Virus record (IMG/VR): IMGVR_UViG_3300036820_000058
Span: 1 to 33,652 of that record
Length of the DNA: 33,652 nucleotides
DNA from: a virus
Reading direction: 5' to 3' (one strand)
A model generated the notes under the pieces. That model was not told the origin of the DNA. It saw nothing but the letters and a program-made list of their open reading frames with translations, and searched no databases. Both the position numbers and the translations under genes were made by a program. Shown one piece after another: positions 3,141-10,812 of the stretch. Within the stretch, counting starts at the first letter, position 1. Every line of letters begins with the position of its first letter.

Positions 3141-3338
3141 ATGAACACAGCAACAATCAATTCGGATAAGCACCAGGCGGCCTGCATGCAGAGCGTCGAG
3201 CTTTTCCGCTTTCTGCATACGGAACTGCTGTCCAGCAACGACCTGACCGGTGCACAACTAGCCGCACATCTCCACAATCAGTGGCTCATGCGACTGGTGC
3301 AGAGCGTCGATAACAACAACAGCAAGGCGGCAGTGTAA
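3141..3338 (+). CDS. Early small protein, unknown function
   Basis: The 65-residue product is unrecognised and looks fully helical (ACMQSVELFRFLHTELL, then GAQLAAHLHNQWLMRLV), with many polar residues. AAGGAG lies 11 bases before the ATG. It is the first gene of the rightward early operon. A nearly identical leader, ACAAGGAGCA followed by AGACAGATGA, precedes the RHH gene at 5835. The stop and the next ATG overlap (TAATG). Confidence 0.7.
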   Translation: MNTATINSDKHQAACMQSVELFRFLHTELLSSNDLTGAQLAAHLHNQWLMRLVQSVDNNNSKAAV

Positions 3339-3601
3339 TGAGTACGGAAGCAAATGCCCTGGTGAACGAGCGTCGGGCAGAAATGAGACTCATTCCCGGT
3401 TATCAGAACGCGCTCGACCAGTACAAGAACATTGAGCAGGCACGCGGACGCACGTCAGCGAACACGTTCGGATACACGCACGAGCAGGCCGACAGTCTTC
3501 AGCGCGGCCCGGTGCTGCGGATGATTCTCGCAGTCAGCGGATATGACGAGTACCACCAGTACGCGCTTGAGTCTGAATGGAAAGAGGGAAAGTCAGTATG
3601 A
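3338..3601 (+). CDS. Early small protein, unknown function
   Basis: The 87-residue product is unrecognised. It is charged and mostly helical, with no cysteine pair, membrane segment or known motif. It is fused tightly into the operon, starting on the stop of the preceding gene and ending in an ATGA overlap with the NUMOD4/HNH-like gene. Early position and size suggest a host-takeover or accessory peptide, but this rests only on location. Confidence 0.7.
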   Translation: MSTEANALVNERRAEMRLIPGYQNALDQYKNIEQARGRTSANTFGYTHEQADSLQRGPVLRMILAVSGYDEYHQYALESEWKEGKSV

Positions 3602-4311
3602 GTACCGCCGAAGAGTACCGCGATATCCCGGAGTGGGAAGATCTTTACTCTATCTCCAACTACGGGAATGTCCGCAATGACAGGACTGGACACATACTGT
3701 CTCCAGCATCAGGCCGTACGAATCCGCTCGCGGCAAAGAAGTACGCTCGTGTAACCCTCAGCGCGAATGGGCGACAAGAGACGCGGTACCTTCATGACCT
3801 GGTCGCTGAAGCCTGGCTAGGTAAGCGTCCGAAAGGACATTGGACGGTCGCACTCGACGGAGACAGCTGTAACGCTGTTCCATCCAATCTCATGTATGTC
3901 CCCCGCGCGAAAGTCCGGCAGATTACGCAGGCGTTGCGCGCGGCACGCGGTGATGGATGGGCAACACGGCAGGCATCTGACCGATGCTGGCGCGGCCACA
4001 CCAAAGACCAGAACATTTGCCGCATCTGCCTCAGCGAAAGGCACAAGCAGCTCGTGCAAATGAGGCACTGGGCTGGGCTGAAGTCTAAGGCACACGTACC
4101 TGCGGAGACAATCACTGCATTCTATGCAGCGCATCTGGAAATCAGTGGTGCTGACCGGTATGTCCGGTTGCCGGGCTACTGCAACAAGAGCCTGCACCTG
4201 GTGACAAATGCAAACACCTATATAGCACCTGGCAGCAAGAGCGGCTTCTGCCGCGCCTGCTGCAATGCGAGCGTCAATAGTCGTATCCAGGAGGTACGCC
4301 GTGCAGGCTAA
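3598..4311 (+). CDS. NUMOD4/HNH-like protein lacking the central His
   Basis: The 237-residue protein begins with a NUMOD4 motif (about 5-35: YRDIPEWEDLYSISNYGNVR), typical of phage homing-type endonucleases. An HNH_3-like core follows (about 65-105), with the first conserved His in YLHDLVAEAW and a downstream CNAVPSNL. Family members have a His in the VNHIDG stretch; here it reads VALDGD, so the general-base His is Ala. The C-terminal half carries Cys/His pairs (CWRGHT, CRICL, later FCRACC) that may form zinc fingers. It may be a nuclease fossil or a DNA-binding protein. The start was chosen because it overlaps the preceding stop by ATGA; an earlier in-frame ATG lies inside the preceding gene. 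Confidence 0.8.
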   Translation: MSTAEEYRDIPEWEDLYSISNYGNVRNDRTGHILSPASGRTNPLAAKKYARVTLSANGRQETRYLHDLVAEAWLGKRPKGHWTVALDGDSCNAVPSNLMYVPRAKVRQITQALRAARGDGWATRQASDRCWRGHTKDQNICRICLSERHKQLVQMRHWAGLKSKAHVPAETITAFYAAHLEISGADRYVRLPGYCNKSLHLVTNANTYIAPGSKSGFCRACCNASVNSRIQEVRRAG

Positions 4312-5002
4312 ATGCATAGACTGTGGTGCTGAGATTACACTCAGCAAGACCAAGATCAGTCCACGCTGCGAGGCGTGCAGGGTCGAGCTGAAGCGCGTGC
4401 GCCGGCAGCATGACCGTGACCTAGCAAAAGCCCAGAAGCACGCTCAGACGCGCCTGACAGGCCCTATCGAGCACGATGATGGTGTCTATACGCGGTACCA
4501 GGCGCCCGTGATACCAGCCGATCTGGTGGGCTACATCGAGCTGCGGGACAAGCAGGCGGCACAGGTGCTCGACCTCATGACAGACGGCACCGTGGGAAGC
4601 TACGGCAGCGCATGGGTTCAAGAGTCAACGGATGAGCTCAGCATCGCTGACGAACGTGGTCGGCCGGTCCTGTATTCCAGCTCGTCAGGACTGCGCGTTC
4701 CCGACGTGGAGACTAAGAGTCCGCGACTACCGGGCGGATCGGCCTGCGGCGTGAGTACTACCAGCCGAGAGCTGCAAGGTGAGCTACTGGAGCGCACGCG
4801 GATGTCAAGCGCTGACCCGTGGTTCAGGGATTATCCGCTCTGGCAATACATGACCCTAAGCGAAATCAAGGCAGAAATGCAGGCCGAGCTTGAGGAAGCT
4901 CGACGAATCCCTGAACCTGGCTACCGGGATGAGATCGCGGAGCGGAGCGCTAAGGCTGGGCTGCGTCGGCATGAACTGCTAAACGGACGGGCAGCCGCAT
5001 GA
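4301..5002 (+). CDS. Zinc-ribbon early protein, unknown function
   Basis: The GTG start at 4301 is supported by a perfect AGGAGG at 4289-4294, six bases upstream. The longer upstream ATG form would have no such site. The 233-residue product opens with a four-cysteine zinc ribbon (CIDCG and CEACR, about residues 4-30) followed by a basic helix (VELKRVRRQHDRDLAKAQKH). The remainder is hydrophilic, ending in charged helices (EIKAEMQAELEEARR). The ribbon and basic helix suggest nucleic-acid binding. It overlaps its upstream neighbour by 11 bases and the next gene by ATGA. No specific family recognised. Confidence 0.75.
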   Translation: MQAKCIDCGAEITLSKTKISPRCEACRVELKRVRRQHDRDLAKAQKHAQTRLTGPIEHDDGVYTRYQAPVIPADLVGYIELRDKQAAQVLDLMTDGTVGSYGSAWVQESTDELSIADERGRPVLYSSSSGLRVPDVETKSPRLPGGSACGVSTTSRELQGELLERTRMSSADPWFRDYPLWQYMTLSEIKAEMQAELEEARRIPEPGYRDEIAERSAKAGLRRHELLNGRAAA

Positions 5003-6307: not shown

Positions 6308-6381
6308 AGCGCCCCGCACAGCAACGGGACGCCTCACAAGGAGCAGCAATGAACACTACAGACAACAGGATACCAGAATGA
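6304..6381 (+). CDS. Short leader ORF before the helicase gene
   Basis: A 25-codon ORF starts at 6304 on the previous stop and ends in an ATGA overlap with the helicase ATG at 6378. A better start may be the internal ATG at 6349, preceded by ACAAGGAG, giving a 10-residue peptide. The helicase ATG itself has no strong ribosome-binding site. This peptide may exist mainly to couple translation into the helicase gene. Confidence 0.4.
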   Translation: MKRPAQQRDASQGAAMNTTDNRIPE

Positions 6382-7916
6382 ACGAGAACCAAGAGCAGGC
6401 TGAAGCTAGCAACTTCAACCCGGTGACCATGGCAGTGCTGTTCCTACAGAAGTACGTGAAGGACGGCATGCCACGGCTGATGCACTGGCAAGGCGAATAC
6501 CGCAAGTGGTCCAAGGGAGCATGGCGACCAGCCGAAGAGGCTGGCCTGAAGGCATCTATCCAGCACTTCCTGATTAGCAGTGGCAAGTCATCGCGCAAGC
6601 ACGTCGAGGACGTGCTGTACGCGGTCAGGAACCTGACGCACCTGGCGGCCGACACGGCACCAGGCAGCACCATCGGCTACGACACGAAGAAGTGCGCTTT
6701 TACCGTGACCGAACCCTGCCCAACTGACCCTGACCAGATTTCGCTTACAGATGGCGTGCTGGAATGGTCAGGGTCTGGTCAGGGTCTGGTCAGGGCAGCT
6801 TCTCCGGCGCTGTTCGTGCTGAATGCCCTTCCTATAAGCTACTTTTCACTACCTGGTCAGGGTGGTCAGGGTAAGTGTCTAATAGTAGGTACTCACGAGA
6901 AAACAGTACAAGAAGAGGCTATAAAAAGAGGTGACGACTTTTCAGCACTTACCCTGACCACCCCGCAATGGGACGCCTGGCTTGCTGACCGTTTTCCAGA
7001 TGATCAGCAGTCCATCGACCTCCTACAGGAGATCTTCGGCTACGTGCTGTCCGGTCGTACAGACCTTCAGAAGGCGTTCTTCCTGTATGGCCCTTCGCGT
7101 TCCGGCAAGGGCACTATCGCGCGGATACTCACGTCACTAGTCGGTCCTGACGGCTGCACGTCGCCTGCGGTCTCAGACCTAAGCAAAGACTTCGGTCTTG
7201 AGTCGATGATCAGCAAATCGCTCAGCATTACCGGAGACGCTACATTCTCGGGTCGTGACGTTGACGTGCTGGTCGGCCGGCTCAAGCAGATCTCTGGCGA
7301 AGACACGATCAGCGTGCAGCGCAAGTTCAAAACCGCGTGGGAAGGCAAGCTGAACGTCCGGTTCATGTTCCTGACCAACGAGCTGCCCGCTCTGCCCGAC
7401 GCGTCAGGCGCTGTGTCGTCGCGTTTCGAGATCGTCAGGTTCCGTAAGCACTGGCAAGGACACGAGAACCCCACCGTCGAGGCTGCGCTGATGCAGGAGC
7501 TAGCCGGAATCCTGCTTTGGGGCCTGGCTGGCTACGACCGCCTGGTGGCCAACAACGGGCAGTTCACTCAGCCTGAGGCTGCGCGCAGCTCGAAGGAAGT
7601 CCTCGGCGATACGTCGGCACCACAGAAGACCTTCATCACGGAGTACTGCGACGTTGACTCTGAGTACACGGTCTCGAAGGACGAGTTCCGTGAGGTTTAC
7701 AACGCGTACCGCAGGTCGCAAGGGGCTAAGGAGGCGGATCAGAGCCGTCTAGGACGTGCTCTGCACGTGCTGGGCTATGAAGGTGCTCGTCTACGTGATC
7801 CTGGCTCGTCTACTGGACGGACGCAGGTCTACATGGGCCTGCGGCTCAAGCACGGCGTGGAAGTCACGTACGACGGCAAATTCCAGATCAACAGCAATGC
7901 TGCTGAAGCAGCTTAA
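6378..7916 (+). CDS. D5-type SF3 replicative helicase (phage/plasmid primase family)
   Basis: The 512-residue protein is the only clear replication enzyme. A D5_N-like region (about 20-125) precedes a flexible Gly/Gln-rich linker (about 130-195) and a superfamily-3 helicase core. Walker A is GPSRSGKGT (238-246). The sensor/motif C stretch is FMFLTNELPALP (about 329-340), followed by the likely arginine finger in SSRFEIVRF. SF3 helicases melt an origin and unwind DNA as hexamers. P4-type relatives carry an N-terminal primase-polymerase domain; none is seen, so priming probably needs host or unknown factors. The linker is encoded by the iteron array at 6728-6960, so the origin may lie inside the gene, as in lambda O. 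No DNA polymerase gene accompanies it. Confidence 0.9.
   Translation: MNENQEQAEASNFNPVTMAVLFLQKYVKDGMPRLMHWQGEYRKWSKGAWRPAEEAGLKASIQHFLISSGKSSRKHVEDVLYAVRNLTHLAADTAPGSTIGYDTKKCAFTVTEPCPTDPDQISLTDGVLEWSGSGQGLVRAASPALFVLNALPISYFSLPGQGGQGKCLIVGTHEKTVQEEAIKRGDDFSALTLTTPQWDAWLADRFPDDQQSIDLLQEIFGYVLSGRTDLQKAFFLYGPSRSGKGTIARILTSLVGPDGCTSPAVSDLSKDFGLESMISKSLSITGDATFSGRDVDVLVGRLKQISGEDTISVQRKFKTAWEGKLNVRFMFLTNELPALPDASGAVSSRFEIVRFRKHWQGHENPTVEAALMQELAGILLWGLAGYDRLVANNGQFTQPEAARSSKEVLGDTSAPQKTFITEYCDVDSEYTVSKDEFREVYNAYRRSQGAKEADQSRLGRALHVLGYEGARLRDPGSSTGRTQVYMGLRLKHGVEVTYDGKFQINSNAAEAA
6728..6960. other. Candidate replication origin: iterons and 15-bp inverted repeat
   Basis: The octamer GGTCAGGG occurs five times on the plus strand (6766-6773, 6777-6784, 6788-6795, 6855-6862, 6864-6871) and as CCCTGACC at 6728-6735 and 6952-6959. 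The first three plus-strand copies form an 11-bp tandem (TGGTCAGGGTC twice, then a variant), one turn of the helix. TGGTCAGGGTAAGTG (6863-6877) is exactly inverted at 6946-6960, enclosing about 68 bp of A/T-rich sequence. Iterons next to an A/T-rich unwinding stretch inside the initiator gene are the pattern of theta-type origins. Confidence 0.65.
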
Positions 7917-8811: not shown

Positions 8812-8849
8812 GCGACCCCAGACCGGCCATGATTCCGGTCTGGGGTCGC
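8812..8849. terminator. Strong hairpin ending the early operon
   Basis: GCGACCCCAGACCGG (8812-8826) is perfectly repeated in inverse at 8835-8849, a 15-bp GC-rich stem with an 8-nt loop, starting one base after the last early stop codon. No T tract follows, as is usual for many high-GC actinobacterial terminators. Confidence 0.88.
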
Positions 8850-8868
8850 GCCGCACGGGAGCGGTAGG

Positions 8869-8904
8869 CCATGGCGGTTCTGTTAGCCACTGAAACCGCC
8901 ATGG
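8869..8904. terminator. Second hairpin, between converging operons
   Basis: CCATGGCGGTT (8869-8879) pairs perfectly with AACCGCCATGG (8894-8904) across a 14-nt loop. It follows the previous hairpin closely and lies 3' of the minus-strand small-ORF operon, so it probably stops leftward transcription. Nothing else was seen between 8905 and 9021. Confidence 0.7.
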
Positions 8905-9128: not shown

Positions 9129-9317
9129 TTATCCTCCGGGTTTCACTAGGCGGCGAACACTGTCCGCATGTACCCGGATGCTGCGGCCTGCCCGCGTGGC
9201 GTCTAGCGTGCCATCCCTGACCAGCCGGTAGATGGTCATGGGGCTAAGCCGCGTCACCCGCGCTACCTCTTTGACCGTTACTAGCTCGGGCCACTCGTCA
9301 TTGGTGGGCATGGGCAT
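9129..9317 (-). CDS. MerR/excisionase-type HTH protein
   Basis: The 62-residue protein is a single helix-turn-helix with wing: ELVTVKEVARVTRLSPMTIY, then RLVRDGTLDATRAGRSIRV. This is the HTH_17/excisionase DNA-binding family, related in fold to the xis-like protein at 2724-2897. Because a better xis candidate lies beside int, this copy is more likely a small transcription regulator of the island or a relic. A second in-frame Met two codons on makes the start slightly uncertain. GGAG occurs ahead of the ATG. Confidence 0.75.
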   Translation of the reverse strand: MPMPTNDEWPELVTVKEVARVTRLSPMTIYRLVRDGTLDATRAGRSIRVHADSVRRLVKPGG

Positions 9318-9999: not shown

Positions 10000-10812
10000 A
10001 TGTCGGAAGTAAAGACAACCTCACTCGCTACGTTCGCGCGCCAGATGAAAGCGTGGCGTACGCAGCTCAAATGGACGCAGGTTGACACTGCCGACAAGCT
10101 CGGGTACTCAGCATCACTGATCAGCGGTATAGAGACCATGGACAAGAACCCCACTGCTGACTTCGCCGCGAGCTGCGACCGCGTGTTCGGACTGCCAGGC
10201 ACGTTCGCCGACTTGCAAGCCCTGGTAGCTCGTGAGGCGTATCCAGCCTGGTTCGCTCCGGTCGTGCCCTTCGAGCAAGAAGCAACCCGTATCCACGGCT
10301 GGGAGCTAGGCGCGGTACCTGGCCTGCTCCAGACTGCCGACTACGCTCGTGCACAGATCAGGTCAGGCCGTCCGCAAGACAGCGCAGAAGCGATTGAACG
10401 GCTCGTCGCCGTCCGGATCGAGCGGCAAGCCATCCTGACCAAGGATCAGCCTCCGATGCTGTGGTACGTGATCGATGAGGGGGTTCTGCGTCACATGGTC
10501 GGCGGACCCGCTGTCATGACTGCGCAGCTAGACAAACTGATCGATTTGTCCGCAATGCCCGGTATCGTGATCCAGGTACTAGCGTTCGACGGCGACAACT
10601 ACGCGGGATCAGACGGACCGATCTCCGTATATGACTTCGCCGTTCAGCCGACAGTCTGCTACACAGAGTGCTACGCGGGCGGACGAGTTGTGGAGGCAAG
10701 AGACGAAGTGGACAACCTGGTGACCGTGCTCGGGCTCATCCGCGCGTCGGCACTGTCGCCGCTGCAATCGCTGAGCCTCATCCACCAGATACGGAGTGAG
10801 ATAGATGAGTGA
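10000..10812 (+). CDS. Scr1/WhiJ-like XRE regulator with DUF5753
   Basis: The 270-residue protein has an N-terminal XRE helix-turn-helix (about 8-66: WTQVDTADKLGYSASLISGI) and a long C-terminal DUF5753 region (about 85-262: GWELGAVPGLLQTADYARAQ, later AMPGIVIQVLAF). This is the actinobacteria-specific WhiJ-like class, annotated in databases as Scr1-family antitoxin-like regulators. In Streptomyces, relatives act with a DUF397 partner in developmental or antibiotic control. The partner gene follows directly with an eight-base overlap. As no large classical repressor is present elsewhere, it could serve as immunity regulator or as a lysogenic-conversion cargo gene. The inverted repeats upstream suggest autoregulation. 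Confidence 0.92.
   Translation: MSEVKTTSLATFARQMKAWRTQLKWTQVDTADKLGYSASLISGIETMDKNPTADFAASCDRVFGLPGTFADLQALVAREAYPAWFAPVVPFEQEATRIHGWELGAVPGLLQTADYARAQIRSGRPQDSAEAIERLVAVRIERQAILTKDQPPMLWYVIDEGVLRHMVGGPAVMTAQLDKLIDLSAMPGIVIQVLAFDGDNYAGSDGPISVYDFAVQPTVCYTECYAGGRVVEARDEVDNLVTVLGLIRASALSPLQSLSLIHQIRSEIDE

Follow-up and report, generated by a model that had tools for sequence, protein, structure and literature searches.

A candidate replication origin within the reading frame of a phage D5/SF3 helicase gene

Octamer array and stem-loop in the helicase gene

A D5/SF3 helicase gene in the window (the whole 33,652-base stretch analyzed here) contains an array of short repeats, or iterons, that partly overlaps a long stem-loop. 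The features, by position in the window, are as follows.

6378-7916, plus strand: D5/SF3 helicase gene, 512 aa, with a D5_N-like N-terminal part, a DUF5906 AAA+ core and a C-terminal RFX-like winged helix
6713-6722, minus strand: probable degenerate iteron (TGGGCAGGGT), one mismatch
6728-6735, minus strand: iteron 1 (CCCTGACC), exact octamer
6766-6795, plus strand: iterons 2-4, three copies of GGTCAGGG in an 11-bp tandem; same triple and spacing in L008 and L062
6849-6947, plus strand: 33-codon in-frame insert, residues 158-190, absent at this site from the relatives; predicted to be disordered, with low codon adaptation
6855-6871, plus strand: iterons 5-6, two copies of GGTCAGGG in a 9-bp tandem, in the left stem-loop arm; codes for GQGGQG
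6860-6963, no strand assigned: stem-loop of ~104 bp, putative origin core, with an 18-bp perfect stem and 27-nt arms
6873-6945, no strand assigned: AT-rich loop, putative unwinding region, 61.6% AT
6952-6959, minus strand: iteron 7, in the right stem-loop arm
7620-7853, plus strand: C-terminal winged helix (residues 415-492; predicted fold), proposed iteron-binding domain

The next gene begins ~16 bp past the helicase stop codon, and the other genes of the record encode an integrase, an HNH/NUMOD4 protein, a terminase, a portal protein and an HTH-DUF5753 protein, a content that fits a temperate actinophage. A Pfam scan of the helicase returned DUF5906 at 1e-15 and a weak D5_N match under Pfam's cut-off but nothing else, and so found no primase domain in the 512 residues; the protein also matches phage DNA primase/helicase families. 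When the family profile was compared with solved structures, the SaPI5 primase-helicase ranked first (7ola, E 2.6e-34), with further matches to RFX5 (3.2e-05), poxvirus D5 and, weakly, NrS-1. The predicted model is of moderate confidence (pLDDT 71.5); it aligns with SaPI5 structure 7om0 at Z 19.2, and its residues 415-492 align with the DNA-binding winged helix of RFX1 (1dp7; Z 9.1, rmsd 2.1, 74 residues aligned). A single-protein search for close relatives of the helicase found none in the viral or genome contig collections, and a draw of 398 genomes across the phylum gave no match at a threshold of 1e-50, an uninformative negative.

Counting over the whole record, we found seven exact copies of GGTCAGGG/CCCTGACC within 232 bp (6728-6959), starting at 6728(-), 6766(+), 6777(+), 6788(+), 6855(+), 6864(+) and 6952(-), which bears out the initial annotation in its count of seven octamers in 233 bp and in its 11-bp tandem of three, seen at 6766, 6777 and 6788. 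The array thus comprises three octamers in an 11-bp tandem, two in a 9-bp tandem and one inverted copy at either end, and all six perfect 10-mers of the record fall within it. Eight octamers occur in the 33,652 bases, compared with 1.08 expected, and none of 100 shuffles reached eight; the concern that the octamer might be equally frequent elsewhere is therefore set aside, since the rest of the 33.6 kb holds one further copy (9215-9222, minus strand), where about one is expected. A degenerate copy lies near this lone octamer, at 9233. Searching the literature for the octamer in connection with phages returned nothing relevant, and megablast of positions 1-25000 of the record against phages gave no match at the DNA level.

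The inverted repeat had been described as 15 bp (6863-6877 and 6946-6960); it is real, but its full extent is 18 perfect base pairs (6860-6877/6946-6963), set within 27-nt arms that are 85% complementary and separated by 50 nt. Folded as single-stranded DNA, the stem-loop has an energy of -22.8 kcal/mol (z = -4.5). That the repeat encloses an A/T-rich stretch was likewise correct: the AT content between the arms is 61.6%, and 6873-6945 is the AT peak of the gene (gene mean 41.6%) and lies in the top 0.2% of the record. Two strong short hairpins, seen by eye, lie past the replication genes at 8812-8850 and 8871-8904, the first of them terminator-like in appearance.

Coding sequence overlaid by the array

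Relatives of the helicase run without break from a ...SVPFDYDP motif into the AAA+ core, whereas the window protein carries 33 additional residues there, and the predicted model is disordered over this segment (157-191). The coding frame of the insert is free of stops, compared with 2-5 stops in each of the other five frames, and its codon adaptation index of 0.41 is lower than that of any of the 843 reference windows; the remainder of the gene scores 0.74. The seven octamers occupy all three codon phases and code for DPDQ, WSGS, GQGL, LVRA, GQGG, GQGK and TLTT; octamers read in three phases into different peptides cannot have been made by selection on the peptide. In two archaeal loci (L142 and L212) the array lies within the 3' end of the gene and GQGGQG is encoded near the C-terminus instead, so that the peptide follows the DNA. 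The proposal of the initial annotation that DNA function shaped the protein is thus supported, by the three codon phases, the absence of the insert from relatives and its poor codon adaptation; a relative with the linker but without the repeats, which would have counted against it, was looked for and none was found.

Arrays and stem-loops at other helicase genes

Other genomes were searched with a pattern consisting of three octamers and their spacing only, with no gene information, and 28 viral and 115 genomic stretches matched. We sorted the clusters by repeat spacing into two classes, tandem GGTCAGG heptamers and origin-like arrays, the latter also taking in loci from an earlier two-octamer search likewise made without gene information. 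Among 64 non-redundant origin-like arrays, a D5-family helicase gene lay within 300 bp or overlapped the array at 32, with the array 3' of the gene in 26 and overlapping its 3'-terminal part in 6; at 3 kb the number was 34 of 64. None of the 75 heptamer arrays, which served as a control, had a D5-family helicase nearby. About half of the origin-like loci were without a recognised helicase in the stretch examined. Loci of this kind with GGTCAGGG arrays (L047, L067, L097, L101, L122, L168, L172 and L199) possibly use other initiators, and the matches in Streptomyces antnestii and some other GC-rich genomes, with no helicase near, may be chance matches. The GGTCAGG heptamer arrays (L104, L114, L121, L163, L194, L205 and others), often present in both orientations and with no helicase nearby, come from Thiobacillus, Gemmatimonadetes, Wenzhouxiangella and Acidobacteria MAGs; although caught by the same pattern, they were set apart as an unrelated class.

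Phages and prophages carrying the array come from many phyla and also from archaea, with hosts including Gemmata, Lysobacteraceae, Roseobacter, Litoreibacter, the actinobacterium Enemella, Haloglomus, Methanoculleus and another methanogen. Several loci share with the window a layout of an 11-bp triple, a gap of ~55-65 bp, a 9-bp pair, a gap of ~80-100 bp and inverted copies, and the window iterons flanking the insert also keep this canonical spacing. In ten loci (L008, L014, L019, L045, L053, L062, L065, L072, L091 and L152) purines and pyrimidines alternate in a GCATGCGCGCGC-like tract of the loop between inverted iteron pairs, a feature that might promote Z-DNA and that is missing from the window. 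The array is carried by two named replicons, Microcystis phage MJing1 and E. coli plasmid pEC224_4. On the latter (L221, NZ_CP018944.1, 14681-17800), a CTX-M-14 plasmid, a GGTCAGGG array follows a CHC2 primase-helicase gene; because the plasmid also has a RepB initiator, it gives no clean proof that the array defines the replicon.

Examined from the side of the helicase, the 80 nearest IMG/VR homologues included a GGTCAGGG array only in L233 (same contig as L088), and most of the others had a repeat or stem-loop of their own at the same place. A 450-bp stretch at the 3' end of each gene was taken from 63 non-redundant homologues and compared with 934 control windows. An 8-mer repeated at least five times was present in 16 of 63 3' windows versus 4 of 934 controls, and for a long stem-loop the counts were 27 of 63 and 9 of 934. 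Mann-Whitney tests of the two features gave p 4e-27 and 2e-14. Stem-loops with differing iterons stand 3' of the gene in most helicase loci of Streptomyces and related prophages, and a CHC2-primase clade (42-72% identity to the query) has CCCTGACC, CCCGGACC, CCTGTGCC, CCTTGACC or CCTGGACG arrays. Iteron turnover within one clade is seen 3' of the helicase genes of L337-L376, where the motifs are mostly GGnCnnGG-like. Mapping of the GGTCAGGG label onto a 105-helicase tree took 5 changes compared with 27 when shuffled, a difference to be read with the uneven sampling, quick tree construction and long branches in mind. Inspection by eye of the Sashavirus and Yara stretches 3' of the helicase revealed no octamer array. 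Given this turnover, the pairing of the window helicase with GGTCAGGG is one we infer from adjacency only.

The window array (6728-6959) lies inside the gene (6378-7916), and an array 3' of this gene was looked for and not found. From its sequence, the array overlays the D5_N domain of its gene, unlike the arrays of relatives. Among 119 helicases screened, inserts with a stem-loop were present only in the window and in L270, whose helicase gene (3329-4951) has an insert in the D5_N region with an array at ~3707-3850. The L270 iteron, TGGCACGCG, forms a 10-bp tandem plus an inverted copy, and its three occurrences in the 37-kb record all lie there; a search for relatives of the L270 helicase found none but L270 itself. 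Since both arrays are intragenic and their iterons differ, the move into the gene seems to have happened at least twice. As no close relative of the window helicase turned up in these searches, the intragenic position is represented by one contig and by the L270 analogue with its other iteron; such a position may be commoner in unsampled lineages.

Origin interpretation, alternatives and known systems

Our reading is that 6713-6963 is a phage replication origin whose iterons would be bound by the winged helix of the D5/SF3 helicase that the surrounding gene encodes, a reading to which we give a probability of about 0.85 on the basis of comparative sequence data, the predicted structure and analogy. 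The initial annotation had proposed an origin here, and the proposal gains from two sides: numerous phages and prophages that are unrelated to one another show the identical array architecture beside D5/SF3 helicases, and the helicases of this class that have been studied by experiment work with iteron or stem-loop origins linked to the genes encoding them. Because the site is inside the gene here and just after it in almost all relatives, the same stretch of DNA is probably both protein code and origin.

Alternatively, the array could be an operator through which the helicase or a phage repressor regulates the replication operon, with replication starting elsewhere. The record does encode an HTH protein (10000-10812), iteron-binding proteins often autoregulate, and iterons placed within a gene or at its end might serve as roadblocks. 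However, the array in relatives is 3' of the helicase gene rather than at a promoter, it associates with helicases, and its layout, with iterons in direct and inverted orientation flanking a long loop, resembles that of tested origins, so we regard an operator as improbable, though it is the likeliest of the alternatives. A mobile REP- or MITE-like repeat that landed in the gene by chance could account for the in-frame insertion of ~99 bp and for similar arrays in many genomes, but it is very unlikely given that the six perfect 10-mers are confined to one array, that arrays track the helicase gene in other genomes and that the iterons on either side of the insert keep their spacing.

Equally hard to sustain is a role of the stem-loops in transcription termination or packaging. 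A stem-loop at the 3' end of a gene is often a terminator, but an intrinsic terminator would not be expected to have a loop of at least ~50 nt, nor iterons in both strands, and a terminator within the open reading frame would cut the helicase message; moreover, the terminator hairpin of the crenarchaeal plasmid pRN1 is separate and dispensable (PMC4234260). Finally, GQGGQG makes up part of the insert, as would be expected if the repeats were a by-product of a Gly/Gln-rich linker, but an origin of the repeats in the peptide is ruled out by the codon phases and the seven different peptides, and the position of the array outside genes in most relatives and the poor codon adaptation of the insert leave this explanation with practically no weight.

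If the locus is an origin, the winged-helix C-terminus of the helicase would bind the direct and inverted GGTCAGGG iterons around the AT-rich loop, and helicase hexamers would form on each arm, melt the loop and move outwards. Since the window helicase is without a primase domain, priming would be left to another enzyme of host or phage. Helicase binding, loop melting, priming and origin activity are each inferred from analogous systems. With the whole putative origin (~235-250 bp) doubling as coding sequence for the D5_N domain of the initiator, it is conceivable, though we consider it rather doubtful, that synthesis and occupancy interfere, bound helicase blocking its own transcription and transcription opening or clearing the origin, as a built-in copy-number switch.

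These results suggest a sequence rule for origins in a large and poorly studied group of phages and prophages, namely to look for an iteron or stem-loop array where the D5/SF3 helicase gene ends and exceptionally inside it, and they supply candidate recognition motifs for such helicases. One motif class, GGTCAGGG, spans actinophages to halophilic and methanogenic archaea. Helicases that share 54-72% protein identity have different iterons, so that the code by which the winged helix recognises its sites is open to testing, and in the intragenic cases the same bases would share DNA and protein functions.

Lambda has iterons and an AT-rich region inside its initiator gene O, as the window does within its own putative initiator gene; O is not an SF3 helicase and recruits DnaB through P, whereas the window gene codes for an SF3 helicase. 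In satellite phage P4 a second origin lies inside the alpha gene; a search of the open literature for a published account of it found none. The C-terminal region of the NrS-1 primase-polymerase is similar in fold to the window helicase (Z 14.0, rmsd 5.6, 283 residues aligned), but the 8-nt NrS-1 site (TTTGGTTA), present as two copies on opposite strands in mid-genome, is a primase recognition sequence, and the window protein is without the primase part. P4 alpha is an SF3 helicase initiator whose C-terminal winged helix binds origin repeats (PMC4234260); it has a fused bacterial-type (TOPRIM) primase, unlike the window helicase.

Plasmid pRN1 depends on a stem-loop of 100 bp, located 3' of its SF3 gene and still functional when moved; phages with pRN1-like proteins carry similar stem-loops, and the recognition motifs of that system were described by its authors as not yet identified (PMC4234260). 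Both pRN1 and the window tie a long-loop stem-loop of ~100 bp to an SF3 replication protein with a C-terminal winged helix, with a 21-nt stem and 58-nt loop in pRN1 and 27-nt arms with 50 nt between them in the window. They differ in that pRN1 has a fused prim-pol, no recognised iterons and a stem-loop 3' of the gene, whereas the window has iterons, no prim-pol and an intragenic position. In SaPI Rep and SCCmec Cch2, proteins of D5_N/Primase_Cterm type, a C-terminal domain recognises iterons directly downstream of the gene itself; in Cch2, a D5_N protein that unwinds 3'-5', residues 400-538 bind the direct repeats (PMC7581432). The window resembles these systems in its D5-type self-loading helicase, its C-terminal DNA-binding domain (a predicted fold) and an array tied to the helicase gene, and departs from them in its iteron (GGTCAGGG rather than the AAGTG of Cch2) and in an array inside the gene rather than directly downstream. 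Judged by sequence, the window origin would therefore be of the SaPI/Cch2/pRN1 kind and new in being embedded in the reading frame of its initiator.
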